Part shown: in pieces, positions 1,378 through 17,671 of the stretch
Layout: every line of letters begins with the position of its first letter
Position numbering within the stretch: the stretch's first letter is position 1
From: an uncultured Bacteroidota bacterium
GTDB lineage: Bacteria > Bacteroidota > Bacteroidia > Flavobacteriales > Flavobacteriaceae
Length of the DNA: 64,000 nt
Assembly (NCBI GenBank): GCA_902613595.1
Contig: CACMHY010000004.1
Coordinates: 1-64,000 of the forward strand
Direction: 5' to 3'
Translations under genes and position numbers: made by a program
Notes under the pieces: generated by a model
What the model was told of the DNA's origin: nothing
The model's input: the letters and a program-made list of their open reading frames with translations, nothing else
Database searches by the model: none

Positions 1378-2718
1378 TTATTGGTTGCTAAATTTTGTTC
1401 TTATAACAATACTATTAAATTTCGAAGAGGCTATAAATCCGACAATTGAAAAGCCAGCCAAAAAAAGAAAAACTAACTGGTGGCCAAATAGCCCCGGATT
1501 ATTGTCTAGTAAAACGCCCATTAATGGTCCCATAAAAATATCTGGCGTGTAGCCTATAACAGATATAATTCCTACAGCAGTTCCGGTGAATGCATAAGGG
1601 ATGTCTCCTTCTTTTACAGCAGAGAAATATAATGACCTTAGACCATAGGTTCCTATTCCAGTTATTATTACTGTAAAAATGAAAAACACGCTAAGAGGTG
1701 CTTTAATAAATCCTGATGCGAACAGCATTGATCCTAAAATTAACATAAGAAATCCTCGTTTTAGCCATATTGAGCTTGTGGATTTATCCGCTATATAACC
1801 AATAAGTATACATACTACTGGTCGCAAATACATCTGATATGATCCTACTTTTGCAGCATTGACCTCATCGAATAACATAATCTCAGAAGCATATAGTGAT
1901 AAAATATCTGTTGCTTTATAACCACAGTAAGCTGATAAAACGATAATAATTAAAAGTCCAACTGAGGGATAACGTGCTACTTTTATAATATTTTTAAATG
2001 AACTCTCAATAATTAAGTTTTGAGATTTTTCTTTATTCTCCATCTCACTCATAAAAATGAATGATAATACCCCCACAAGCATTACCATTAAAGAAGTAAA
2101 TAAAATTACCCAACGGAAAGCTTCTTTCTTTTGATCAAAAGAAGCTAGGTTAATATCAACTGGTATTAATTTTGCAAAAATTAAAATACCAATAGCCCCT
2201 ATAGTCGCAGCAATAATACCTCTCCCTCCTTCTAAAAATCCAAAAGCTTTACCTTGGCTTTGTTCACCTCCCCAATTTCTTGTTGCTTTTATCATTGCGG
2301 CCCAAAAAAGGAATGTGGTTGAAAATCCCCAAAAACCATACAAAATCTGTAGTGAATAATAAGAGGGAAAAGTTGACATTAAAAATCCACCCATAGAAGT
2401 CATTACAAGGGCAGTACCCATCAAAATTTTAGGCTGAAATCGATCTGCTAAAGTGCCGCCGTATAGGTACGAAATTAGTGCTACAACTCCATAAGTAGAA
2501 TATAATGTTCCTAGCTGAAGGTTATCTAATTGGAAAACATCTAAAAATGTTGGTCTGAAAATTCGAGCAAGTACAAAAGGGAGAATAAAAACTCCTTCTC
2601 CCGCTGTGACAAGAAGCAGAATCCTGAAGAATGAATTTATTCTGTATTTATTTTTATTGATAAAGCTGGATTTAGATTTTATTATACCCGTTGAATTTAA
2701 CAATATACAAATAAGCAA
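1378..2718 (-). CDS. MFS transporter
   Basis: 446 aa, ~12 hydrophobic segments, GGTLADRFQPK loop motif; true start may be downstream of the track start. Confidence 0.85.
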   Translation of the reverse strand: MLICILLNSTGIIKSKSSFINKNKYRINSFFRILLLVTAGEGVFILPFVLARIFRPTFLDVFQLDNLQLGTLYSTYGVVALISYLYGGTLADRFQPKILMGTALVMTSMGGFLMSTFPSYYSLQILYGFWGFSTTFLFWAAMIKATRNWGGEQSQGKAFGFLEGGRGIIAATIGAIGILIFAKLIPVDINLASFDQKKEAFRWVILFTSLMVMLVGVLSFIFMSEMENKEKSQNLIIESSFKNIIKVARYPSVGLLIIIVLSAYCGYKATDILSLYASEIMLFDEVNAAKVGSYQMYLRPVVCILIGYIADKSTSSIWLKRGFLMLILGSMLFASGFIKAPLSVFFIFTVIITGIGTYGLRSLYFSAVKEGDIPYAFTGTAVGIISVIGYTPDIFMGPLMGVLLDNNPGLFGHQLVFLFLAGFSIVGFIASSKFNSIVIRTKFSNQ

Positions 2719-2768
2719 AAATACTTTGGTAAAGTTCTCTTAATGTAAAAGAAGCTTCGTGTAAAACT

Positions 2769-2999
2769 TTACTCAACGCAATAGGTGTCACCTACTTCAT
2801 ATTGGTTGTAAACTTCCTCTGTTACAGAGCCAGACAAAGGTTGACTATTTCCATCTTCATCTAGTCCTAAAGCTGTAAATAGTCCCCAATAAAAATAAAA
2901 CTTCCCATTACTCTGTTCTTTAAGGGTTATTTCAACGCAGCCTGTTTCTTTTGTGCACCCCATAGTAAAAAATAAAATGTATAATACTGCTTTTCTCAA
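2769..2999 (-). CDS. Small putative lipoprotein
   Basis: 76 aa with short signal peptide and cysteine (FFTMGC). Confidence 0.45.
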   Translation of the reverse strand: MRKAVLYILFFTMGCTKETGCVEITLKEQSNGKFYFYWGLFTALGLDEDGNSQPLSGSVTEEVYNQYEVGDTYCVE

Positions 3000-3145
3000 T
3001 TTACTTGTAGAAGATTATTCTCAGGTAAGTTAATTATTACTGTGGGAAAATTCTAATCTTTAAATTGAATGATTCAAATCATGCACTTAAAAAATTACTA
3101 TTGGTATAGCATTGTTGTATTTAAAAATTTTTAGTTTCGTTATAA

Positions 3146-3583
3146 ATGAAAATCCGCAAAATATTTTTTGGGTTATTTCTGATTTCAGTTAATTCTTATT
3201 GCCAACAAATGAATAATTACCATCACGCTTTGCGCGAAAAAAAGGAATTAAGTTTTAAAAATCAATATCGCGTACTTAAAACAACTTTTAAAAGTTTAAA
3301 TGGTTTCCAAATTCTTTATCCAGGAACTAAGATCTCGCTTGAAAAGGTTTTAAGATACCACTTGCATACCTCTATTCATCTTGATCAAGAAACCAATATC
3401 CTTATTTCAATGGACCAAAGCGAATTCAAATTAAATAACACCTCCTCTGAAAAAGAAATAACAAAAGAAGTTGTCTCTTTGATCGGCAACATGTTTTTCG
3501 GCTCCAGTGAAGTCAGCAAAATTCCTTTTGAAAAAAAGAATTATAGACGTAAGGGCATGACTGCACCGAATAGAAAACACTAA
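3146..3583 (+). CDS. Hypothetical exported protein
   Basis: 145 aa with N-terminal hydrophobic signal (FFGLFLISVNSYC). Confidence 0.5.
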   Translation: MKIRKIFFGLFLISVNSYCQQMNNYHHALREKKELSFKNQYRVLKTTFKSLNGFQILYPGTKISLEKVLRYHLHTSIHLDQETNILISMDQSEFKLNNTSSEKEITKEVVSLIGNMFFGSSEVSKIPFEKKNYRRKGMTAPNRKH

Positions 3584-3633
3584 ATATTTTCTAAATTTTT
3601 TTTATAATTTGTGAATGAAAAACATTTTAGATT

Positions 3634-6600
3634 ATGAAACCTTACTTGCTATTTGTCTTATGCTATTTTTTTGCGATCACACCTGTTGATTTAACAGCCC
3701 AGCGAAAAAAGAATAAAAAACAAAATGAAACCACTTTCTCAGAATCTTTATACAATTCATTAGAATGGAGGCTTGTAGGCCCCTTTAGAGGTGGGCGCGC
3801 AGCAACTGTTGCTGGTGTGATAAATGATCCTAACACCTATTACATGGGAACTGCAGGGGGTGGTGTTTGGAAAACTAAAGATTCAGGAAATAGCTGGTAT
3901 TCAATTTCAGATGGTTATTTTGGAGGTTCTATTGGGGCAGTTGCTGTCTCTGAGTCTGATCCAAATATAATTTATGTTGGAGAAGGAGAGCAAACTCTGA
4001 GAGGAAATGTTTCATCTGGAAATGGACTATGGAAAAGTTTGGATGCAGGCAAAACCTGGAAATTTATTGGATTAGAAGGTAGCGAGCATATATCTAGAAT
4101 ACGAATTCACCCCAAAAATCCCAACTTAGTTTATGTTGCTGCAATAGGTAATTTGTGGAAACCAAACAAAACGCGTGGTGTATATAGATCTGAAGATGGA
4201 GGAAATACTTGGCAGAAGATACTTTATGAAAGTGATAAGGCCGGTGCTGGTGATTTGATATTGGATCCTAATAATGCTAGAATAATTTATGCCGCTACAT
4301 GGCAAATGAAAAGAAATGGATATCGGATGGATAGTGGGGGGCCTGACAGTAAGCTTTACAAAAGTTTTGACGGGGGTGACACATGGATCAATATAACTGA
4401 GAATAAAGGCCTACCAAGTGGGCCTTGGGGAATTGTTGGAATTACAGTATCTCCTGTAGATTCAAACCGAATTTGGACAATCATTGAAGCATCTAATGGT
4501 GGTGTTTTTCGCTCGGATGACGCTGGTAAAACATGGGAAAAAGTAAACGAAAATAGAGCTTTACGACAAAGAGCCTGGTACTACAGTAGAATATATGCAG
4601 ACACTCAAAATAAAGACAAAGTTTATGTAATGAATGTAAGTTATGGTGTGTCAACTGATGGGGGAAGTACATTTACATTGAAAGATGCACCGCATGGAGA
4701 TCATCATGACCTTTGGATAGATCCAAATAATAATAATAGAATGGCAATTGCAGATGACGGCGGAGCACAGATTTCAAATGATGGTGGAAATAATTGGACC
4801 ACATATTATAACCAACCTACAGCACAATTTTACAGAGTAACCACAGACAATCAATTCCCATATAGAATCTATGGAGCACAACAAGATAATACGACCGTTA
4901 GAATAAACCATAGAGGTTCAGGATCTGGTATTGGTGAAAGCGATTGGGAAACAACAGCGGGTGGAGAAAGTGCTCATCTTGCTCCAGACCCAAAAAATAA
5001 TGATATCGTTTATGGTGGAACATATAAAGGATATATGATGCGTAAAGATCATAGAACAGATCAAACACGTTCAGTAAATATTTGGCCTGATAATCCTGCT
5101 GGTTCAGGAGCCGAGGTAATGAAATACCGATTCAACTGGAACTTCCCTGTCAAGTTTAGTATACACGATGAAAATAAACTTTTTGCAGGGTCTAACTTTT
5201 TACATACGACAACGGATGGTGGCCAGTCTTGGAAAACAATATCACCTGATCTGACAAGAGGACTCCCAGAAACAATTAAGTCCTCTGGAGGACCCATAAC
5301 TCAAGATAATACTGGTGCAGAATTTTATTCAAACCTTTTTGCTATCAACGAATCACCAATTGAAAAAGGAGTTATTTGGGTCGGCAGTGATGATGGATTA
5401 ATTCACGTAACGACAGATAACGGTGAAACTTGGAAAAATGTGACACCTCCTCCGACATTAAGCCCTAAGTTAAATATGATCAACTGTATTGACCCCAGTC
5501 CATTTAAAAAAGGTACAGCGTATGTAGCTGCTACCTCATACAAATTTGGAGACTATAAACCCTATCTCTATAAGACAAATGATTATGGTAAAACCTGGTC
5601 TTTGATTACCAAAGGAATTCCTCAGAATTACTACAGCAGGGCTATACGATCTGATAAAGTACGAGAGGGGCTGCTGTATGCAGGGACTGAATGGGGAATG
5701 TTTATCTCGTTTGATGATGGGAAAAGTTGGAAGCCATTTCAATTAAATCTTCCCATTACATCAATTAGAGATCTTCATGTTAGAGATAATGATTTAATAG
5801 CTGCAACTCATGGAAGAAGCTTTTGGATGATTGATGATTTAACACCACTGCATCAGCTAGAAAATAATTTAAATTCTCAATCATTCTTTCTTTACAAGCC
5901 AGACAAGGCATTTAGAGTTGAACAATCAGAGGAAGATGATGAAACTAACTTAAAATTAGTCGGAAAGAATCACCCTGTTGGAGCAATTTTACATTTTTAC
6001 ATTAAAAATTTAAAAGAAGATGATCTTGTAATTATTGAAATTAAAGAAAAAGACGGCTCACTGATTAAACGTTATAACAGTAAAGCAAAACTAAATAATC
6101 TAAACCCAGAAGCTGATCTTCCGTTGGTACTAAAATCTGGTGGAAATAAATTAATCTGGGATATGCGATATCCAGGATATAAAGAATTCGAGGGAATGGT
6201 ATTTTATTCTTCTCCTAATAAAGGTCCCAAAGCAATTCCAGGTGAATATTTAATAAGTCTAAACTATAATGGCGAGGTCATTGAACAATCCTTAAAAATT
6301 GAAAAAGATCCAAGGCTTGAAAATACTGATAAAGATTATAGAGATCAGTTTGATTTTTTAATTAATGTTCGTAATCAGGTAACTAGAGCTAACTCAGCGA
6401 TAATCAAAATTAGAGAGGTTCAAAAAGATTTAAACTATCTAAAGCAAAAATCAGGTCTTACTGAAGAAATAAATAATCTTATTAATCAGTTCGAAGTAAA
6501 GTTAAGCCATATAGAAAATAATATTCATATGACAAAAAACCAAAGTCGTCAAGATCCATTGAACTATGGGATTAGAATAAATAACAGAATCGCATTTTTA

Positions 6601-6786
6601 TTAGCGGATTCACAACGAGGAGACTATCCTCCTACAAATCAAGCAAAAGCTTTTTTCAGGGAAATCACAGCTGAACTTGATCGTGAAATGGAAGCTTTAG
6701 AAAAACTTTTAAATGGATCTATTTCTAGGCTTAATGAAATTGTTTCTGATAATCAAATAGGAATTTTTTCCATAAAAAGCCCTTAA
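3634..6786 (+). CDS. Large exported BNR/sortilin (VPS10)-type beta-propeller protein, glycosyl-hydrolase-like annotation
   Basis: 1050 aa; signal peptide; many SxDxGxTW (Asp-box) repeats such as SLDAGKTW, SFDGGDTW, TNDYGKTW. Confidence 0.88.
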   Translation: MKPYLLFVLCYFFAITPVDLTAQRKKNKKQNETTFSESLYNSLEWRLVGPFRGGRAATVAGVINDPNTYYMGTAGGGVWKTKDSGNSWYSISDGYFGGSIGAVAVSESDPNIIYVGEGEQTLRGNVSSGNGLWKSLDAGKTWKFIGLEGSEHISRIRIHPKNPNLVYVAAIGNLWKPNKTRGVYRSEDGGNTWQKILYESDKAGAGDLILDPNNARIIYAATWQMKRNGYRMDSGGPDSKLYKSFDGGDTWINITENKGLPSGPWGIVGITVSPVDSNRIWTIIEASNGGVFRSDDAGKTWEKVNENRALRQRAWYYSRIYADTQNKDKVYVMNVSYGVSTDGGSTFTLKDAPHGDHHDLWIDPNNNNRMAIADDGGAQISNDGGNNWTTYYNQPTAQFYRVTTDNQFPYRIYGAQQDNTTVRINHRGSGSGIGESDWETTAGGESAHLAPDPKNNDIVYGGTYKGYMMRKDHRTDQTRSVNIWPDNPAGSGAEVMKYRFNWNFPVKFSIHDENKLFAGSNFLHTTTDGGQSWKTISPDLTRGLPETIKSSGGPITQDNTGAEFYSNLFAINESPIEKGVIWVGSDDGLIHVTTDNGETWKNVTPPPTLSPKLNMINCIDPSPFKKGTAYVAATSYKFGDYKPYLYKTNDYGKTWSLITKGIPQNYYSRAIRSDKVREGLLYAGTEWGMFISFDDGKSWKPFQLNLPITSIRDLHVRDNDLIAATHGRSFWMIDDLTPLHQLENNLNSQSFFLYKPDKAFRVEQSEEDDETNLKLVGKNHPVGAILHFYIKNLKEDDLVIIEIKEKDGSLIKRYNSKAKLNNLNPEADLPLVLKSGGNKLIWDMRYPGYKEFEGMVFYSSPNKGPKAIPGEYLISLNYNGEVIEQSLKIEKDPRLENTDKDYRDQFDFLINVRNQVTRANSAIIKIREVQKDLNYLKQKSGLTEEINNLINQFEVKLSHIENNIHMTKNQSRQDPLNYGIRINNRIAFLLADSQRGDYPPTNQAKAFFREITAELDREMEALEKLLNGSISRLNEIVSDNQIGIFSIKSP

Positions 6787-6790
6787 GTTT

Positions 6791-8290
6791 TTATAGAGGT
6801 TCGGTTAGGATAGATAAAATTGTTTTTATGCCATTGCGGTAATCCCCAAGTCTAATGTTTTCATTTGGACTGTGCTGATTATTATCTCGATTAACAGTTG
6901 GAACTGTTACTGCCGGTATATCAAGTGTGTTTACAAATGGTGATATTGGTATAGAACCCCCACTCATTCTAATCCTAATGGGGTCTGTATCAAAACCCTT
7001 TTTTATCGATTTGCGTAGCCACTTTCCTACCTTAGTGTCAAGATCTGTTCTGAAAGATTGATAAGAGATTTTGTGCGTAAATGTTGCCACTTTAGGATAA
7101 TCTGTTCGTTCCTTAGCTGTTGGCTCTCTGTCTACCACATAGTATCCTTGATTTTCAACATGTTTTTTTACAAGGCTTATCAGACGCTTAGGGTCAGACT
7201 CCAGAACCAAGCGAATGTCGATTTCAGCCCTTGCCCAAGCAGGGATTATAGTTCTTACTTTCTCATCTATCCATCCAGACTGCATACCACGAATATTTAG
7301 AGACGGAAATTGAATTGATTCTTGGTAGGTGTCACCAACTTTATCAAGCTCACCGATTTGTAAAGTCTTCATAAACTGCTCTTGGTCGTGGGGAAAGTTA
7401 TCTAGTATTTTTTTTGTCTTGGAATCAATTGAAATACCATCGTAAAACCCAGGGATCACAACTACCCCTTCATCATCTTTCATAGATGCAAGAAGCTTTG
7501 CCATTCTAAGGGCAGGGTTGGGAACATAATTCCCAAAGTGACCACTGTGCTGGGCAGTTACCGGTCCATAAATTGTTAGTTGAATGGTTGAAATCCCTCT
7601 TGCGCCAAATGTTAAAGTAGGCTTCCCTGACCTATGCTTTGGCCCATCGAATATAATAAGGTGATCCGCAGACAGTATTTCCCTATTTGCATTAACCGCT
7701 CTAGGTAAATTTGGAGATCCTAACTCTTCTTCAAAATCCATTATGACTTTTATATTAAAATTTGGGGATAATTTTTTTTCTTCAAGTACATCCATTGCAT
7801 TTAAAAACATGACTACTGGTCCTTTGGCATCACTTGTTGAACGGGCAAATATTCGCCAATCATCTTTATAGTTTTTTATTTCATCCCAATCTATAATTTC
7901 CCAAACTCCCTGACTATTTTGTCTCTTTAAGACTGGGGTGTATGGACTTTCCTGAAACCATCTTGAATTATCTACGGGCTGCCCATCTATTTGTAAATAT
8001 ATAAGCACCGTTTCTTTCGCCCTAGGGAAAGTTTTCTCCGCAAGCAAAAGCGGTGCTTTAGGGGTTGAAATCCGCTTTGTAACAAAACCTCTTTCAGCAA
8101 AATTTTTCTCACACCACTTTACATTTAACTCAATATCATCCAAATGATTTGCATCATTTGGAATACTTAAAATTTCATAAAACATATCAAAAGATTTGTT
8201 CGTTGCATTTTTTGCCCACATTTCTAAATCTTTTGAAGATTGGCTAAATCCAAGGCTTGATACTAAAAAGGATACAAGGAGTTTTTTCAT
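6791..8290 (-). CDS. M20-family metallopeptidase, exported
   Basis: 499 aa; signal peptide; STSDAKGPVV, DFEEELGS, RMSGGSIP motifs of M20 peptidases. Confidence 0.88.
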   Translation of the reverse strand: MKKLLVSFLVSSLGFSQSSKDLEMWAKNATNKSFDMFYEILSIPNDANHLDDIELNVKWCEKNFAERGFVTKRISTPKAPLLLAEKTFPRAKETVLIYLQIDGQPVDNSRWFQESPYTPVLKRQNSQGVWEIIDWDEIKNYKDDWRIFARSTSDAKGPVVMFLNAMDVLEEKKLSPNFNIKVIMDFEEELGSPNLPRAVNANREILSADHLIIFDGPKHRSGKPTLTFGARGISTIQLTIYGPVTAQHSGHFGNYVPNPALRMAKLLASMKDDEGVVVIPGFYDGISIDSKTKKILDNFPHDQEQFMKTLQIGELDKVGDTYQESIQFPSLNIRGMQSGWIDEKVRTIIPAWARAEIDIRLVLESDPKRLISLVKKHVENQGYYVVDREPTAKERTDYPKVATFTHKISYQSFRTDLDTKVGKWLRKSIKKGFDTDPIRIRMSGGSIPISPFVNTLDIPAVTVPTVNRDNNQHSPNENIRLGDYRNGIKTILSILTEPL

Positions 8291-8402
8291 TTTATTTTTT
8301 TTTATTTATGTGAAACAATATACAAAGAAGTGATTAACTCCTTAAATGTCAATATATTTTAATATTTATTAATATTTTAAATCTGATTTTGTTTGATCTC
8401 AA

Positions 8403-8410
8403 TATATTTG
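8403..8410 (+). promoter_or_regulatory. Bacteroidota -7 element (TATATTTG) upstream of YccA-like gene
   Basis: Match to TAnnTTTG; no convincing -33 TTG at correct spacing. Confidence 0.4.
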
Positions 8411-8437
8411 TGCATTAAAATTTTAAATGAAAATTAT

Positions 8438-9175
8438 ATGAGTAGTCACTTATCATTAAGATCCGGAAATCCTGTACTCTCAAAAAAAACTTTTGATAAC
8501 ACTATCTCTGTTAGTGAGAAAATGACCATAGAGGGTACCGTAAATAAAACTGGTGTCAGCCTTTTAATTCTTGTTGGAACAGGATATTTAACCTTTGACA
8601 CACTTAATCCAATATTATTAGTTGGATGTGGAATAGGCGGATTTATCTTTGCTCTTGTTACAATTTTTAAAAAAGAATGGGCTCCAATAACAGTTCCAGT
8701 CTATGCAGCTCTTCAGGGAGCTATGCTTGGAGGTATATCCTACATCTATAACTACCTATATGATGGTATAGTAACAAATGCGATCCTTTTAACGGTTGGA
8801 ATATTAGTATCATTACTAATTGCATATCGATCTGGATATATAAAGGCAACAGAAAATTTTAAACTTGGAATTTTTGCAGCAACTGGAGGCATAGCAATCG
8901 TTTATCTTGTAAATTTTATAATGGGATTCTTCGGCACAGGGATTGGTGTTCTCAATATTAACAATGCATCTCCACTAAGCATCGGCTTTAGTATTGTCGT
9001 TGTAATAATCGCTGCCCTAAATTTAGTTTTGGATTTTGATTTTATTGAAGAAGGTGCGGAAAAGGGTGCTCCAAAGTATATGGAATGGTATGGCGCATTT
9101 GGCTTACTAGTAACACTTATATGGTTATATCTCGAAATATTGAGACTCCTTGCAAAACTAAATTCACGAAAATAA
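8438..9175 (+). CDS. Bax inhibitor-1/YccA family membrane protein
   Basis: Track ORF starts at 8393, but MSSHLSLRSGNPVLS at 8438 is the likely start, since TATATTTG (8403-8410) looks like its -7 element; multi-TM YccA-like pattern. Confidence 0.85.
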   Translation: MSSHLSLRSGNPVLSKKTFDNTISVSEKMTIEGTVNKTGVSLLILVGTGYLTFDTLNPILLVGCGIGGFIFALVTIFKKEWAPITVPVYAALQGAMLGGISYIYNYLYDGIVTNAILLTVGILVSLLIAYRSGYIKATENFKLGIFAATGGIAIVYLVNFIMGFFGTGIGVLNINNASPLSIGFSIVVVIIAALNLVLDFDFIEEGAEKGAPKYMEWYGAFGLLVTLIWLYLEILRLLAKLNSRK

Positions 9176-9248
9176 TTTAAGTCAAAATCTTACAGGTTGA
9201 TCCTACTTATTATTCGGAATAATTGAAATTCGAAGAGTTAAAATTAAA

Positions 9249-9269
9249 AGCCCTCCAAATTGGAGGGCT
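9249..9269. terminator. Intrinsic (possibly bidirectional) terminator hairpin
   Basis: AGCCCTCCAA-A-TTGGAGGGCT, perfect 10-bp stem between convergent genes. Confidence 0.75.
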
Positions 9270-9275
9270 GGTTTT

Positions 9276-10061
9276 CTATCTCTCTGAAAGAACCAATCTT
9301 AATACTTGACTCCGTTTTATTTTTCTCAAACTAAGAATATTCTTATATGTTGAGAGCATAGTTTTACTCATGGGACTTGTTTGATCCATCATGTCATAAA
9401 TATCTGAAATCGAATCAAAAAACCTTGCAACAATGTAACTAGCCGCGTCTATATTATTGTTTCTAGGCGATACGATTTTGTGTAATCCCCAACCTTTAAC
9501 TTTTTTGTTTGCTTTTTGTAAAGGGAGGAATGTCTTCAATTCGGTTTGCTCATATTCATAAAAATCAAGTGGATTAACCATCATCCAATCTAGAACAACT
9601 AGTTTTGGTGGGTCTTGATTAGCCGCTGGAACAAACCCTCCTTTATATGAAGTCATAACAGATCCTGATTTTACAACTCTTTCTCCCCATCTGGCTCTAG
9701 CCATTTTTAACTCACTTTCGGAAAATATTTCTTCTCCTCCTGAATAATTATATAAATTCTCTGGATCTTCAAGGTGTGCGTATACAAATGTAGTATGCGG
9801 TTCCCCATATCTAGGATTTTCAAGTCTCCACATATCCCATCCAATTTTACTTCCATTATCTATAGCTTGCTTGTGCAATTTTGAAAAATATTTTTTTTCA
9901 CTATCAATGTGAGCTTGAGCATCTTCATTTTTGACCGTTACATAATGAAGTCCCACATACATTCTTTGTTGTGCATAAGAAAAACTCATGCAAGAAACTA
10001 AAAAGAGATTAATAAGTTTTTTCATTTTAATTGATTTATGATTAATAAAAGCAATATACAA
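9276..10061 (-). CDS. Hypothetical exported protein
   Basis: 261 aa; signal sequence KKLINLFLVSCMSFSYAQ (true start probably the internal MKKLINLF). Confidence 0.6.
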   Translation of the reverse strand: MYIAFINHKSIKMKKLINLFLVSCMSFSYAQQRMYVGLHYVTVKNEDAQAHIDSEKKYFSKLHKQAIDNGSKIGWDMWRLENPRYGEPHTTFVYAHLEDPENLYNYSGGEEIFSESELKMARARWGERVVKSGSVMTSYKGGFVPAANQDPPKLVVLDWMMVNPLDFYEYEQTELKTFLPLQKANKKVKGWGLHKIVSPRNNNIDAASYIVARFFDSISDIYDMMDQTSPMSKTMLSTYKNILSLRKIKRSQVLRLVLSER

Positions 10062-10179: not shown

Positions 10180-10500
10180 TCAATATAACAAGTGCTTTTT
10201 TTGATTATTTCTCCATCCCGACTGAGATTTATACTTTACAAAAAAAATTTTCAAGTCACTTTGTGATGAATAATTCACAAAATATATCTTCTTGTTGGAT
10301 TGTGAAGGGTATTTTACAAAATACCATAAACCCTTGTTGCCTTTTGATTGAGATGGATAATCTACTTTAAAAACCTTTAAATCAGACTGAGATTCATAAT
10401 CAACAACAAACACTTTAATATCAGATTGAGATGGATAATCTACCGAAAATATCTTTTGAGAGAACCCGAAAAAAGGTAACAATAGAATAATGTATTTCAT
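10180..10500 (-). CDS. DUF6150-type exported repeat protein
   Basis: 106 aa; six ~13-aa repeats of the type VDYPSQSDIKVF and a GWRNNQKKHLLY tail. Confidence 0.8.
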   Translation of the reverse strand: MKYIILLLPFFGFSQKIFSVDYPSQSDIKVFVVDYESQSDLKVFKVDYPSQSKGNKGLWYFVKYPSQSNKKIYFVNYSSQSDLKIFFVKYKSQSGWRNNQKKHLLY

Positions 10501-12159: not shown

Positions 12160-12286
12160 TATAATATCTTCAATTCAGGGGAATATAACTATAATTTAAT
12201 TATCAACTGGTATTAGCTTGTAATGATATAATTGTGTTTCTTCAAATAGAAAAATCCTACCCTAGGTAAAGCGGTTTTAGTTAAGA

Positions 12287-12799
12287 CTAGTCCATAGTTT
12301 TCTTTTCACCACATATCTCCTGGCCATAAAGTTGTTTTACGAAAAGTAAATCTGATAGATATTCAGTAATACTACTTACTTTTCCTTCATCATTTATGCT
12401 GTATAACCAAATGTAATCATTATTGTACTCACCATTGACACCCTCAGCCTCTCCAGATAACACTATCGCCGAACCATTAACGCCAGAAATTATTTTCTCC
12501 ACATTTCCTTTCCAACCATTTTTTAATAGAGATTGAAATGCTCCCGCAGTTTTGAGAAGCTCTTCATAAGTGTAAGTTCCAGATATATCCAGCTCACCTC
12601 TTAAAGTAAAGGTAAAATCATCACTAATTGTTGATTCAAACACATCAAAATCAGCAGTATTATATGCTTTAAAATTCTTTGAAACAATGGAGTTATTCCT
12701 TTCAATTAAAATCTCATTTTCGCTTTTTAATGTTTTTTGCTCGCAAGAAATAATTGAGATAATCAGAATTAGTAAAAAAAGATTTTTCATTTTAGACAA
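12287..12799 (-). CDS. NTF2-like/SnoaL-like lipoprotein
   Basis: 170 aa; lipobox IISC; NSIVSKNFKAYNTADFDVFESTISDDFTFTLRG pattern. Confidence 0.6.
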   Translation of the reverse strand: MSKMKNLFLLILIISIISCEQKTLKSENEILIERNNSIVSKNFKAYNTADFDVFESTISDDFTFTLRGELDISGTYTYEELLKTAGAFQSLLKNGWKGNVEKIISGVNGSAIVLSGEAEGVNGEYNNDYIWLYSINDEGKVSSITEYLSDLLFVKQLYGQEICGEKKTMD

Positions 12800-12866
12800 T
12801 TTAAAGTTAATAACAAATAATATACAAGTTAGTCCCTAAATTTAAAGAAAAACAATATATAGTTAT

Positions 12867-13805
12867 TTAGTTTGTTTTTAAATCATAAATAATATTCATT
12901 ATAAAATCCTCTTTTGTTATATTACCTGGACCTTTTAATTCCGATTTAATTTCATCCATTATTTGTTCCACAGATAATCCTTGAGAGAGACCTTTCTCAG
13001 TTTTTTCATAATGTTCTTGAAGAATATTTTTCAAGGTTATAACATCACCAACATTACAAACCGCTCCATGGCCAGGTATTATTTTTGTTCGTTGATTTGA
13101 GATGGCAATAATTTGGTTTAAAACATTAATGAATCCCTTAAAACTACCCCCATCATTTAAATCAACATAAGGATATCCATAGGTTACAAATGAATCACCT
13201 GCGTGAATTACATTATTCTTTTTAAAAAATACTATTGTGTCTCCGTCAGTATGGCCTGGGCCAAAATTCGAAAGCTGTATTTCTTCATCTTCAACATAAA
13301 TTTTCATAGTTGAATTGTAAACAGTTGAGGGGAGTGCAAAATCTGGGTATTTATCTTGTACCATATTATAATCGTGTTGGGGATGACCATAAAGCTTGGA
13401 TTTCCTTTTAAGCCTTTTCCTAACATTTTCGTGAGAAACAATCGGTATTCCTTTCTTGCCAAATGCTTTATTGCCGTCAACGTGATCGTAATGAAAATGT
13501 GTATTGATGATAAAGCTTATATCTTTTTTACTTATAGAATTAATCGTTTCTAAAATTAAATCCTCAATAATTTCCCATTGATCATCAACTAATACTAATC
13601 CTTTATCGTAAATAAAAACCCCGATGTTTCCAGCAACTCCACCAATAGGTTTAATCATAAAAAAAGTTTCATTAATTTTAATAATCTCTTCGCCTAGGTT
13701 ATTTTTCACCTCTTTTTCCACTTTTCTGAAAGCCTCAAGATCTTTATCTGATTTTTGGGCAAGTGAAAATGAAGAAAAGAAGATTAAAAAAATTAGATTT
13801 CTCAT
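12867..13805 (-). CDS. MBL-fold metallo-hydrolase, exported (class B beta-lactamase-like)
   Basis: 312 aa; signal peptide; NTHFHYDHVDGN (HxHxDH) motif. Confidence 0.88.
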   Translation of the reverse strand: MRNLIFLIFFSSFSLAQKSDKDLEAFRKVEKEVKNNLGEEIIKINETFFMIKPIGGVAGNIGVFIYDKGLVLVDDQWEIIEDLILETINSISKKDISFIINTHFHYDHVDGNKAFGKKGIPIVSHENVRKRLKRKSKLYGHPQHDYNMVQDKYPDFALPSTVYNSTMKIYVEDEEIQLSNFGPGHTDGDTIVFFKKNNVIHAGDSFVTYGYPYVDLNDGGSFKGFINVLNQIIAISNQRTKIIPGHGAVCNVGDVITLKNILQEHYEKTEKGLSQGLSVEQIMDEIKSELKGPGNITKEDFIMNIIYDLKTN

Positions 13806-13963
13806 TTTGTATAATTTATGGTTGCATATAAATGTACAAATTAGTGTCTGGACTTCATGAAAGCATATGCCTATGTTTTAGAAATTAAAAGATTTTTAAA
13901 AGTGTAGCTACGAGATAAATAAGTAAAGAAGATTCTCTCAACCACTAAAATCAAAAATTACAA

Positions 13964-14051
13964 TTTTTTGTCACTTTTTGGCCATTTTTGATCATTTTTC
14001 ATTCATTTTTAGTCATTTTTGGTCATTTTTGGCTATTTTTTGATACTTTTT
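13964..14051. repeat. Phased T-tract array (predicted curved DNA)
   Basis: Nine T5-T6 tracts beginning at about 13964, 13975, 13985, 13995, 14006, 14016, 14026, 14036 and 14047; mean spacing about 10.4 bp; degenerate (t/g)CATTTTTGGT unit. Confidence 0.9.
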
Positions 14052-14056
14052 GAATT

Positions 14057-14197
14057 TGGATTATATCTAAATATACACCCAATTGGCTCTAAGAAAAAAG
14101 CGTTCTACAAAACCCACCCCTCCGTCTGGTATTTAGACTGTAAGGAAAGTTTTTAAGTCTTCTCTTTAAATACAAAGTCATAGTCAACGTTCTTTCC
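14057..14197. repeat. Direct repeat copy A (left of the FG-GAP gene)
   Basis: Shares TATATCTAAATATACA(C/T)CCAATTGGCTCTAAGAA, TTCTACAAAACCCACC, GAAAGTTTTTAA and TCTTTAAATACAAAGTC(A/G)TAGTCAAC-type segments with 15763-15902. Confidence 0.85.
14153..14197 (-). pseudogene. Truncated copy of the C-terminus of the HUH Rep-like protein
   Basis: Reverse strand encodes GKNVDYDFVFKEKT*, versus GKDVDYDFVFKGKS* at the end of the 15856-16308 ORF. Confidence 0.85.
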
Positions 14198-14212
14198 TAA
14201 ACCTAGTGAGCT

Positions 14213-15721
14213 TTAATCGACTTTTATTAACTCTCCATTGATGAGTTCCCATTCGTGATAAAAAAACCTTGGGTTTTCACTGTACAATAACTCATGGTCT
14301 TCTACTTGTTTAGGAATATTATTTCGTAATTCTATAACACCATCTTTATCATAATCACTAATTTCTAAATACACATTCCAAAAGCCTGTTTCGGATTTGT
14401 TTTCTTGCATAAATTTGGTTGTATTATCGACATATTCGCCATCAATAAACTCTAATATTTGAATATACCAACCCTTTTGTGAATTCCGTATTCGGTTTGT
14501 AATAATTTCAATACTTCCATTTCCGTCAAGGTCATAGAAATCAGCATCATAAACTTGATCCCATTCTCCTGCTAATGGGATGGTATAAACTTGACCTTCA
14601 AAATTAATTCCGTTACCAATAAGAACTTGAGAAGAATAATACACATCTTGAGTTCCATTGCTCATTGATTCTTCTCCTTCTTCAGCACTCATAAAAAAGA
14701 AATCAAGGATTCCATCTTCGTTGATGTCAAACATTTCACCATTTATAAAGACTTTACCGTACTGGTTCTTATATAAACCTAAATCTTTAAATTCGGTAAA
14801 ATTGCCCAATCCATCATTTTCTAGAACCATAAAAGCATATTCGTACATACTAGCGGTAGTAAGTAAAACATCAAGGTCTCCGTCATTATCAAAATCTCCA
14901 CTTGAGCCTCCATGAAAAAAGTTACTGAATTCTGTTAACCTTTTTTCTGTAAATTCTCCAGAGGCAGAGTTTTGTAGGAGTACAGGGTATTCACCTGAAA
15001 AAGGAGGATAATCCCATCCGTGACCGATTAAAAAAATATCAGGGTATGTATCGTTATTATAGTCTCCCAACAAAATTTTTCTACCATGGATGAGTCCGTA
15101 AAATTTATTCGAATTAACATCATCTAAGATCATATTGCCTTCACAATCTCCTAAGAAAAAAGAAATTAATTGACGGTTATCATTGTTATTGTAATCGTTT
15201 TCATATGATACTAAGTCCAAAAAGCCATCTCCATTGTAATCAAGCATTATCTTTTCTGTACCGTATTTATGTAAATAATGAGTTGGGTATTGAGCTACTT
15301 GATTTAAATCCAAGGGATGAGAAATTTTAAATGTGTGGTATGATGGCAATAAATAATCTCGAGGTTCTTCACTAAGGCAGATGAATTCAAATAGAGCTTC
15401 TATTGTGCTGTTTGAATTCAAAGTAAATGAGATTGTTTGATTTAAAGAGTTGTTCCCTTCCCATCCAATAAATTTATATCCCTCAGAGGGAGTAGCTGTA
15501 ACAGTAATCTCAGTCCCCTCATCATACTTGCCTCCCTCAGTAGAAACAGAACCGCCCTCTCCAGCTGAAACTGTCAAAGTATATTGTGTTGGAGCTGGTG
15601 TTTCAGGCTCTTGGGTTTGAACAACACTAGATGCACCAGAGTCATCATCATCTGATGAACAAGAATAAATGTAAACGGATAACATGATAACTACACTTAT
15701 GGGTAATAAAGCTCTTTTCAT
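14213..15721 (-). CDS. Secreted lipoprotein with InlB-type beta-grasp repeat and FG-GAP/VCBS repeats
   Basis: Track ORF begins 15823; MKRALLPISVVIMLSVYIYSCSS at 15721 is a clear lipoprotein signal. YTLTVSAGEGGSVSTEGGKYDEGTEITVTATPSEGYKFIGWEG domain, then DYNGDGFLDLV, DFDNDGDLDVL, DINEDGILDFF repeats. Confidence 0.88.
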   Translation of the reverse strand: MKRALLPISVVIMLSVYIYSCSSDDDDSGASSVVQTQEPETPAPTQYTLTVSAGEGGSVSTEGGKYDEGTEITVTATPSEGYKFIGWEGNNSLNQTISFTLNSNSTIEALFEFICLSEEPRDYLLPSYHTFKISHPLDLNQVAQYPTHYLHKYGTEKIMLDYNGDGFLDLVSYENDYNNNDNRQLISFFLGDCEGNMILDDVNSNKFYGLIHGRKILLGDYNNDTYPDIFLIGHGWDYPPFSGEYPVLLQNSASGEFTEKRLTEFSNFFHGGSSGDFDNDGDLDVLLTTASMYEYAFMVLENDGLGNFTEFKDLGLYKNQYGKVFINGEMFDINEDGILDFFFMSAEEGEESMSNGTQDVYYSSQVLIGNGINFEGQVYTIPLAGEWDQVYDADFYDLDGNGSIEIITNRIRNSQKGWYIQILEFIDGEYVDNTTKFMQENKSETGFWNVYLEISDYDKDGVIELRNNIPKQVEDHELLYSENPRFFYHEWELINGELIKVD

Positions 15722-15762
15722 TGAATTGATTATGTATAGAAGTAAAAGATAATAAATGTTTA

Positions 15763-15902
15763 GGTTATATCTAAATATACATCCAATTGGCTCTAAGAAG
15801 AACCATTCTACAAAACCCACCACTACTAAAATAAATTTTCTACTAGAGAAAGTTTTTAACTTTTCCCTTTAAATACAAAGTCGTAGTCAACATCTTTACC
15901 AA
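15763..15902. repeat. Direct repeat copy B (right of the FG-GAP gene)
   Basis: See copy A at 14057-14197; includes the 3' end of the Rep-like ORF. Confidence 0.85.
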
Positions 15903-16308
15903 AGTGCTTCACAACATATTTGCAAACCTCATCTTTATCATAGATAGGTTGGTAATCTCCTACAGATACATTCCCTAGTCCAAATCTAATTTCTTTATAA
16001 GTCATACCTGTATTTGTATCAATTAGCATGTGTACATGTTTATTAGTGTGATCCCCTTTATCCCTCTCACTCACATAGAAAACATTTTTTACTTTGTATG
16101 TAGAGGAAATAAGTTTATTAATCCAGTTGCGAGCAGTCATAAGGTGAAATTTGTAATGGGTTCTACAAGTTATAAGGTAGTTCCAATCAAATATTCTAAG
16201 AAATTCAGCATATCCGTTCTTCATTTTCATAATGCTTGAGTTCAGGAAATAGAGGATATTAAGGCGTTCTAAAGTTTTTGTCTTAAAAAGTCTTAAAACC
16301 CTGATCAT
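15856..16308 (-). CDS. Small HUH/Y1 Rep-like endonuclease (rolling-circle-replication-initiator-like)
   Basis: <=150 aa (start uncertain, possibly internal MKMKNGYAEFLRIF); HVHMLID = HUH motif; downstream CKYVVKHFGK = YxxK catalytic-Tyr-type motif. Confidence 0.65.
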   Translation of the reverse strand: MIRVLRLFKTKTLERLNILYFLNSSIMKMKNGYAEFLRIFDWNYLITCRTHYKFHLMTARNWINKLISSTYKVKNVFYVSERDKGDHTNKHVHMLIDTNTGMTYKEIRFGLGNVSVGDYQPIYDKDEVCKYVVKHFGKDVDYDFVFKGKS

Positions 16309-16406
16309 TATTGATAATAAAGCTAGATCAAATACTTGTCCAAAATAGAGCTAATATGCAATTCAAGAAAAAAACTAGGGACAAATCTGTGGACAAATTA
16401 AAAAAG

Positions 16407-16438: not shown

Positions 16439-16445
16439 TTTTATT

Positions 16446-16459
16446 GGTGGTCCCACCTG
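16446..16459. repeat. att-like copy of the tRNA 3' end
   Basis: GGTGGTCCCACCTG, identical to 17596-17609 covering the 3' end of the tRNA; weaker similarity (nnCTCnAA) continues. Confidence 0.6.
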
Positions 16460-16514
16460 TCCTCAAAGGGGGGTTGTATATATAATGATAATCAACAAGT
16501 TAACTGATGTAGGT

Positions 16515-16531
16515 GGTTCGGTATCCGAACC
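16515..16531. repeat. Inverted repeat GGTTCGG-TAT-CCGAACC
   Basis: Perfect 7-bp arms; further CCGAACC/AGGTTCAGGTTC motifs at 16545-16598. Confidence 0.7.
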
Positions 16532-16590
16532 ATTTTGGTTAGTGTTCCGAACCTTCTCAAAAATCAAGATTTTTTGACTACAACCCAGGT

Positions 16591-16992
16591 TCAGGTTCTT
16601 TTAGGACCATTATTTTGAATTGTCCCTTGTAGAAAACAAAAAACTATTCCACCAATAATTGTCCATAATACATCATTCCAATCAAAAACTCCTCTTCCTG
16701 GAGTGTAAATCGTTATAAACTCATTTCCAATTAGACCAATCATAGAAATGATTATTGACCACTTTAATCTATTTCTGTAAATAGATGTATTAGGTTTAAA
16801 AATCTCTGGAATGGTTACATAAAACATACTTGGAAGACCAATACCTGGAAGGAAGTTGGGAATTACTCCAAGAAAATAAATTATAACGTCATTTCCTCCT
16901 TCATAGTTTGGTCTGATGTAATCTTGAACCAATCCAAATGTTAAAAATGTAACTCCAAAAACTAGATAATAAAAATATTTTCTGTTCATCAA
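16591..16992 (-). CDS. Hypothetical membrane protein
   Basis: 133 aa, four hydrophobic segments. Confidence 0.6.
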   Translation of the reverse strand: MMNRKYFYYLVFGVTFLTFGLVQDYIRPNYEGGNDVIIYFLGVIPNFLPGIGLPSMFYVTIPEIFKPNTSIYRNRLKWSIIISMIGLIGNEFITIYTPGRGVFDWNDVLWTIIGGIVFCFLQGTIQNNGPKRT

Positions 16993-17052
16993 CTTTCAAA
17001 AATAATTTATTTGTTTTGGATTTAGGTTCGGTTCAGGTTTTAAAAGGACCAA

Positions 17053-17502
17053 TTATAAAATCCCAAATTGATTAAAGTGATATGAGGTGTGGAAATGAAC
17101 TAGTTTCTTAAATAAACTAGTTTCAATATTACCATATATGTTGTGAATAGTATAATGAGACTTTAACTCCTTAACTATTTTAATGTTTTCAGTAAGTCTG
17201 TTTTTTTTATTTAAAAATGATTCTTCTGAACTAAAAGACTTAAAATCTTTTAGGGTTTTTGAATTTTTTGGATACTTGTTTATATCAAAATCCAATGACT
17301 TTAAATATTTCAAAAATACTTTTCCAAAAAGTCTCCCAAATAATCTTGTCCGAAGACTAATTTTTTGGTTTCCTAATGAGACTTCAATAAAATTGTTACA
17401 ATGATTAATCATTTGAAATGAATTCATTTTTCCCCATTTAGGGGATGTCTCTTCATCAAGATAATTCAACTTATCAATAAGAGAATCAAAATCATAAATC
17501 AT
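17053..17502 (-). CDS. DUF1569-like protein
   Basis: 149 aa; SPKWGKMNSFQMINHCNNFIEVSLG resembles the DUF1569/DinB-like N-terminus. Confidence 0.65.
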   Translation of the reverse strand: MIYDFDSLIDKLNYLDEETSPKWGKMNSFQMINHCNNFIEVSLGNQKISLRTRLFGRLFGKVFLKYLKSLDFDINKYPKNSKTLKDFKSFSSEESFLNKKNRLTENIKIVKELKSHYTIHNIYGNIETSLFKKLVHFHTSYHFNQFGIL

Positions 17503-17561
17503 ACTACAAATTAATGATTTTGGTTCGGATTTTGGTTCGGAATAAGAAATGTAAAAAATAA

Positions 17562-17592
17562 AAACCCTCTAAATCAATGACTTAGAGGGTTT
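17562..17592 (-). terminator. Intrinsic terminator after the tRNA
   Basis: AAACCCTCTAA-atcaatgac-TTAGAGGGTTT, 11-bp stem; T-rich run on the minus strand. Confidence 0.8.
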
Positions 17593-17597
17593 AAGGG

Positions 17598-17671
17598 TGG
17601 TCCCACCTGGGCTCGAACCAGGGACCAACTGATTATGAGTCAGCTACTCTAACCAACTGAGCTATAGGACC
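17598..17671 (-). tRNA. tRNA with CAU anticodon (Met or lysidine-Ile2)
   Basis: Cloverleaf GGTCCTA...GCTGA-CTCATAA-TCAGT...GGTTCGAGCC...TGGGACCA; CCA not encoded. Confidence 0.93.

Follow-up and report, generated by a model that had tools for sequence, protein, structure and literature searches.

The window, by which we mean the whole 64,000-nucleotide stretch of a contig from an uncultured member of the Flavobacteriaceae, carries on its minus strand a gene for a small Rep-like protein, which is followed in order by a first repeat, a gene for an FG-GAP lipoprotein (the cargo gene) and a second repeat (Table 1). Using the letters of this DNA only, an earlier sequence-only reading had claimed that two diverged repeats flank the lipoprotein gene, that the gene fits tightly between them and that the second copy carries a remnant of Rep, and all of this was borne out. 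The two repeats share 79-80% identity across ~137-147 nt (E 2.4e-27 and 3.8e-27), which is well above chance, and the cargo gene is separated from the repeats by ~40 nt at its start and by ~15 nt at its end. Repeat 2 retains ~45 nt of Rep, and the encoded peptide, GKNVDYDFVFKEKT followed by a stop codon, is homologous to the product of the final 14 codons of the intact gene. In the cargo protein, Pfam detected a divergent InlB B-repeat (Flg_new_2, E 2.7e-19) and FG-GAP_3 (E 5e-15). Sequence shared with congeners restarts only at ~12165, so that Rep, the FG-GAP gene and the second tail all lie within a variable island. Upstream of Rep, in a context that the sequence-only reading had missed, there are a tRNA-Met gene and a duplication of its 3' end as an att site. 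Some minor features were also observed in this region. The part of the cargo gene that encodes the N-terminal signal and InlB repeat (15380-15670) shares 70-78% DNA identity with many otherwise different genes of the genus, often near tails. A low-complexity run of AAAAATGACC-like units follows tail 2 (13940-14055), and a tail of the tail 2 type with a similar run is also found near tRNA-Asn of another genome, G434 (L112, 18455-18520). Further away, a 106-aa ORF on the minus strand (10180-10500) is built of repeats of the form VDYxSQSDLKVF.

Table 1 Features of the tRNA-Met locus and the Rep region in the window.
Feature	Position	Strand	Basis or remark
tRNA-Met (CAT), intact; 3' end CAGGTGGGACCACC is the att core	17596-17671	(-)	ARAGORN; core recurs at element junctions of congeners
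Integrative mini-element, 1.15 kb, two ORFs, no integrase	16460-17595	(-)	Lies between tRNA-Met and displaced core
DUF1569-like ORF of mini-element	17053-17502		Pfam
VanZ-like ORF of mini-element (weak)	16591-16992		Pfam
Left arm repeats of mini-element, CCGAACC twice	17522-17540	(-)	12 nt apart
Right-end arm units of mini-element, GGTTCGG/CCGAACC	16515-16553	(-)	
Displaced tRNA-Met 3' end (att core)	16445-16459	(-)	Right end of mini-element and left end of Rep element
Left arm repeats of Rep element, TTTGTCC twice	16379-16397	(-)	12 nt apart
Minimal HUH Rep, 124 aa	15856-16230	(-)	Motifs, profile and predicted fold; longer ORF starts at 16308
Repeat 1	15759-15903	(-)	Spans Rep 3' end, stop at 15856
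Tail 1, conserved module behind Rep	15757-15864	(-)	From Rep stop region to GATATAACC
Cargo gene, InlB B-repeat/FG-GAP lipoprotein, 502 aa	14213-15721	(-)	
Repeat 2	14055-14201	(-)	Last ~14 codons of an older Rep and tail 2; putative truncated Rep element
Rest of variable island	12166-14054	(-)	Metallo-beta-lactamase-fold gene 12867-13805; small secreted-protein ORF 12287-12799

The Rep gene is present as a single copy in its own assembly (1.9 Mb, 24 contigs); up to 8 matches were found in one genome and numerous homologs are degenerate with stops. Since the homologs begin at the Met corresponding to 16230, the upstream start, which had led to a length of 150 aa in the sequence-only reading, is probably too far upstream. 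In an alignment of 25 homologs, some with as little as 23% identity, ten residues do not vary (W16, R23, F51, E55, D57, H65, H67, V90, Y105 and K108), and they include the HxH metal site (H65, H67) and the catalytic Tyr motif YxxK (Y105, K108), both kept in 25/25. When the profile of the 25-homolog alignment was compared with solved structures, the SIRV1 ORF119 Rep (2x3g) was the sole clear match (E 4.2e-6). Weak Pfam matches were obtained among the alignment members to REP_ORF2-G2P (22/25) and '117-like_vir' (17/25), and the REP_ORF2-G2P match of the window Rep is under Pfam's cut-off. The AlphaFold2 model (mean pLDDT 88.9) also had 2x3g as its top PDB match in Foldseek (E 3.5e-4, probability 1.00, TM 0.56), followed by the Reps of Vientovirus, wheat dwarf virus, circovirus and TYLCV, and in a viral structure library it matched microvirus, CRESS-virus and rod-shaped-virus proteins. 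By motif, profile and predicted fold, Rep is a true minimal single-Tyr HUH nuclease, in agreement with the identity and the fold that had been expected. A phage origin was considered and rejected, as one scan of viral contigs found no relative of Rep.

For comparison of the integration site, we retrieved the tRNA-Met locus from 20 congeners via RbfA synteny. The CAGGTGGGACCACC core marks element junctions at tRNA-Met in six congeners as well as in the window, and the elements vary in size: 7.1 kb (L187), 5.7 kb (L188), 1.15 kb (L189), 1.47 kb (L202) and 8.5 kb with an integrase (L203), together with a stack of pieces of at most ~1 kb (L196). A terminator-like hairpin is found at every left end, and most left ends also show two direct repeats ~12 nt apart, the unit of which is element-specific (at least ten units); at the right ends, where visible, the unit usually recurs and is followed by an anticodon-stem-like stretch and then by the core. 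Because matching units recur at the right ends, we take these direct repeats as arm-type sites. Another candidate, that the ~12-nt repeats after the tRNAs are C-terminal codons of integrases, was rejected, as translation by hand gave no consistent frame. The mini-element of the window has a copy in L189 (94.7% identical), and the TTTGTCC arms of the Rep element are also present at tRNA-Met in L111, L188 and L205. No integrase gene is present on the window elements, which would thus need integrase help in trans, and a right end (attR) was not found for the Rep element of the window or for most other Rep loci. Judged from these junctions, tRNA-Met is a hot spot of tandem integration. In L203 (G424:C6, oriented 1649-9399), a 533-aa Tyr integrase stands beside the tRNA, with a ParB-like gene and a block of acyl/short-chain dehydrogenase-like genes, and in L196 (G140:C34, oriented 1735-3857), three mini-elements of ~1 kb, ~0.1 kb and ~1 kb, all without integrase, are stacked at tRNA-Met.

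The association with tRNA genes extends to Rep genes elsewhere. Of the 34 close Rep homologs, defined by at least 57% identity, 26 have their start a short distance past the 3' end, intact or displaced, of a tRNA or tmRNA gene: 20 start 204-300 bp past a tRNA or tmRNA, four (the window, L157, L164 and L175) start about 200-250 bp past a displaced tRNA 3' end, and in two the contig begins inside a tRNA. The others are either cut by the contig start (3/34) or without a tRNA (5/34). The genes upstream of congener Reps are tRNA-Ser(GCT), Ser(TGA), Asn, His and Met and the tmRNA gene. A Rep element that is complete and has an integrase was found only in G427, where the 3' half of tRNA-Asn is duplicated as 70 identical bp (attL 87486, attR 104402) around an element of 16.9 kb. 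Its left part contains, in order, arms TTTGCCC 12 nt apart, Rep, the tail, two secreted cargo genes and a second dispersed repeat, R2; then follow PD-(D/E)XK and HTH genes, a GmrSD-type restriction enzyme, a C5-methyltransferase and further genes; and the right end has a 513-aa Tyr integrase (Arm-DNA-bind_5, Phage_int_SAM_5), the TTTGCCC arms, again 12 nt apart, and attR. Thus, matching arm repeats stand at both ends, with Rep on the left and the Tyr integrase on the right. The order of integrase, arms and attR recurs in G407, whose integrase is 61% identical to that of G427 and where attR ends in a displaced 3' half of tRNA-His; the arms of another element follow, and the Rep of that contig lies beyond this junction. 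This att/arm architecture and the Tyr integrases of G427 and G407 point to tyrosine recombination at tRNA ends, rather than HUH chemistry, as the probable route of integration. No terminal overlap that would indicate a free circle was detected in 12 short Rep contigs, and no excised circle was seen.

Behind nearly every Rep there is a tail of ~105 nt, which runs from AAAAGCTAAAA to GATATRTAACC, and the genes beyond it vary, mostly encoding secreted proteins or lipoproteins; the expectation that homologs would be followed by a repeated tail and then by different cargo was therefore correct. These genes are often preceded by a promoter-like stretch, TTTG-N19-TATATCTTAG, and many tails end in such a stretch. 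Solo tails without Rep also exist, and many of them start at one common point in unrelated contexts; for example, the solo tail of L122 directly follows the arm repeats at tRNA-Met. R2 is ~170 nt long, consisting of a terminator and a conserved block ending in GTGTGGATACGTGATGGG, and many small genes have it at their 3' end and many cassettes are closed by it. In L095, L108 and L158 (L158, 2031-2208), R2 adjoins the next tail within 2-3 nt, giving arrays in which Rep, tail, genes and R2 are followed immediately by another tail and its genes. R2 and tails are dispersed in several genomes, with 15 R2 copies in G435 and 7 in G140, a genome that has no Rep match, yet keeps both tails and R2. As side observations, the small genes of an array in G435 are separated by R2 (L131, G435:C3, 1-8401), and a palindrome, TGTCCCATCCCTAAGGATTGGGACA, stands immediately before a solo tail in three genomes (L110, ~575-613; L113, ~165-212; L191, minus strand, tail at 5729), in two of which (L113 and L191) it lies between R2 and the tail, raising the possibility that other sequences insert there too. 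For 37 tails, RNAalifold found 0 consensus pairs, and the idea that they share a single conserved hairpin or an attC-like structure was not adopted; in a subgroup of 18 tails, 13 pairs were obtained, only 2 of them with changes on both sides (a weak hairpin).

Exchange of DNA behind Rep is visible in several comparisons. Rep modules that are 95-99% identical are joined to tails that are only ~60% identical and to unrelated DNA beyond. Such a swap is found within one genome at two tRNAs (L097 and L098) and at one chromosomal locus (L120 and L102), where the flank and the Rep remnant are 96% identical. In L163, Rep breaks exactly after AAAAGC, and in L094, a gene stands between the Rep stop and the tail. 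A single cassette (tail, 65-aa gene and the start of R2) follows two Reps in G435, the cassettes being ~94% identical and the last 120 nt of Rep 82.5%; the identity jumps ~45 nt before the Rep stop and the right breakpoint is inside R2. Cassette breakpoints thus fall on the Rep stop or no more than ~50 nt from it, and since they vary (at the stop codon, ~45 nt inside Rep, inside R2), the exchange clusters at the Rep 3' end and is not fixed to one nucleotide. From these patterns, both homologous recombination and breaks made by Rep are possible sources of the exchange. The earlier proposal that cargo is inserted or exchanged behind Rep is supported as regards replacement, for which the breakpoints fall on the Rep stop or shortly upstream of it, but is not supported as regards Rep or the tail being the inserting agent, given the Tyr-type att sites, arms and integrase.

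We propose that the feature in the window is probably part of a tandem stack of small tRNA-Met integrative elements with swappable cargo behind an HUH Rep. The stack would stand at the tRNA-Met 3' end of a marine flavobacterium of the MS024-2A type. Element circles would be inserted at the tRNA by a tyrosine integrase, in many cases probably supplied in trans. With each insertion, the tRNA would stay intact on one side and a displaced 3' end of it would come to lie on the other, so that older elements are pushed away by newer ones. One element family carries the minimal SIRV-Rep-like HUH Rep as its first gene, and the Rep stop is a modular boundary at which cassettes of tail, promoter and cargo, with or without R2, have been exchanged and sometimes stacked. 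The architecture, the stacking and the module swapping at the Rep 3' end are evident from the compared loci. In the window, the Rep element carrying the FG-GAP gene appears to abut what is left of an older Rep element, namely its truncated 3' end and its tail, which would explain the tight fit of the cargo between the two repeats; the simplest route would be deletion of the left end of the older element up to the end of the FG-GAP cargo. Repeat 2 is therefore probably the remnant of an older Rep element, rather than, as the sequence-only reading had suggested, a recombination site duplicated around the cargo. Most likely, Rep would nick a site in or beside the tail and the excised circle would be replicated by a rolling-circle-like route. 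No conserved structure shared among the tails supports an origin role for them, which counts against this step. Elements without Rep or integrase would retain cis sites only, and cassettes may be exchanged through the shared sequences of the Rep 3' end, tail and R2. Further points against the proposal are the missing right ends of most Rep loci, including that of the window, the single complete Rep element with an integrase, the five Reps without a tRNA, the lack of any observed excised circle and the lack of a Rep relative in one scan of viral contigs.

Other explanations have to be weighed against this stack of integrative elements. A decayed local tandem duplication of the Rep region, with no mobile element, would agree with two diverged same-strand repeats, one with a Rep remnant, but many genomes carry Rep and tail beside Ser, Asn, His, Met or tmRNA genes, together with att duplications and varying cargo, and by these comparative data the duplication is disfavoured and highly improbable. 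We also give very little weight to Rep as a Y1 transposase of the IS200/IS605 or RAYT kind with the tail as its right end: a small single-Tyr HUH protein with a conserved module downstream and up to 8 matches in one genome would suit it, but the motif is YxxK and not YxxxQ, Pfam gave no Y1_Tnp match for Rep, Rep nucleases are the best structural matches, and att sites account for the anchoring at tRNAs. It is a real, if doubtful, possibility that Rep is either a relic or just a gene for replication, that tails and R2 are scattered sequences with a regulatory or terminator role, and that all cargo is shuffled by ordinary homologous recombination between repeats in the tRNA islands. The terminator in R2, the promoter-like end of many tails, the many degenerate Reps with stops and the breakpoints within shared repeats are consistent with this, whereas the catalytic residues are invariant in 25 homologs and the abrupt change exactly at the Rep stop of several loci, to tails of ~60% identity, is unlike crossovers in long homology.

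The remaining alternative is an HUH-driven cassette system, in which Rep would cut at AAAAGCTAAAA behind its own gene and at the junctions of R2 and tail, joining and stacking surface-protein units of tail, gene and R2 in tRNA islands, and the array would lengthen downstream of Rep in the way that integron arrays do downstream of intI. Breakpoints at the Rep stop codon, the common start point of solo tails in unrelated contexts, the close abutment of R2 and the next tail (L095, L108 and L158) and the retention of tails and R2 by the Rep-less G140 all argue for it. However, some breakpoints are found ~45 nt within Rep and within R2, a pattern expected from homologous recombination, the integration of elements has its own Tyr-integrase machinery, and no conserved tail fold extends over all families; we therefore regard this system as unlikely. 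If true, it would be an integron-like system running on HUH chemistry. As for the small HUH-linked cassette system that the sequence-only reading had envisaged, module swapping behind Rep stands, but integration appears to follow tyrosine-recombinase and not HUH chemistry.

Compared with known systems, the stack of Rep elements is closest to the AICEs (e.g. pSAM2), which insert at tRNA 3' ends by a Tyr integrase, carry an HUH rolling-circle Rep and can be inserted in tandem at one tRNA (PMC3218068). The Rep elements resemble them in insertion site, tandem stacking and an HUH Rep, for which a rolling-circle role is predicted, and the complete element of G427 has the Tyr integrase, but the Rep elements occur in another phylum, their Rep is minimal and SIRV/CRESS-like, swappable tail/R2 cassettes lie behind it, and many small members have no integrase; moreover, no conjugation gene (FtsK-like Tra) was found among the G427 ORFs scanned, the Pfam scan covering some of the ORFs. 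The closest solved relative of Rep by sequence and fold, SIRV1 ORF119 (2x3g), is of equal size with a single Tyr, but it is a protein of an archaeal virus, whereas Rep belongs to a bacterial tRNA island. Tycheposons are marine, tRNA-integrated elements with a Tyr recombinase, variable cargo and reduced members. They are the closest marine analogue, sharing all these properties with the Rep elements, which differ in residing in Flavobacteriaceae and in having an HUH Rep and a cassette zone behind it; tycheposons are mentioned in PMC11389934. With integrons, the Rep elements share head-to-tail gene units, repeated non-coding sites and a DNA-processing gene alongside, and Rep-less genomes here keep the units; in contrast to integrons, an HUH nuclease takes the place of IntI, no attC was shown and the arrays have few units. 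There is no IntI-type integrase beside attI: the adjoining gene is the HUH Rep, and the G427 integrase, of the Arm-DNA-bind_5/Phage_int_SAM_5 type, is at the other end. Charybdis elements (PMC12324425) were rejected as a match, having an archaeal host and no detected replication gene. In Gulf of Maine relatives of MS024-2A, the same clade, a variable genomic island beside a tRNA has been reported (PMC4164334), but the tRNA is tRNA-Arg, and the passages considered describe no elements, Rep or att sites. In the limited open-access literature considered, we found no description of SIRV-Rep-like islands or of a tail/R2 cassette zone.

These elements suggest how marine flavobacteria with small genomes (~2 Mb) may swap genes for surface proteins and lipoproteins and may harbour restriction-modification genes, namely by small tRNA-anchored elements, many without their own integrase, stacked at a few tRNA and tmRNA genes. 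Through them, a minimal Rep of virus-like type would also be connected with an integrative element of bacteria, and the Rep stop codon would provide an exact, testable boundary of cargo swapping.

Two further observations concern the contigs themselves. Contigs with Rep or tails (e.g. L155, L158, the end of G434:C8 and G409:C29) frequently end at a tRNA 3' end or at a tail, as would be expected if the sequence there is repeated or varies within the population. In addition, a 347-aa integrase stands beside a tRNA-Ala-like gene with an altered 3' end in L140 (G434:C2, 20-1196), which suggests another att junction.
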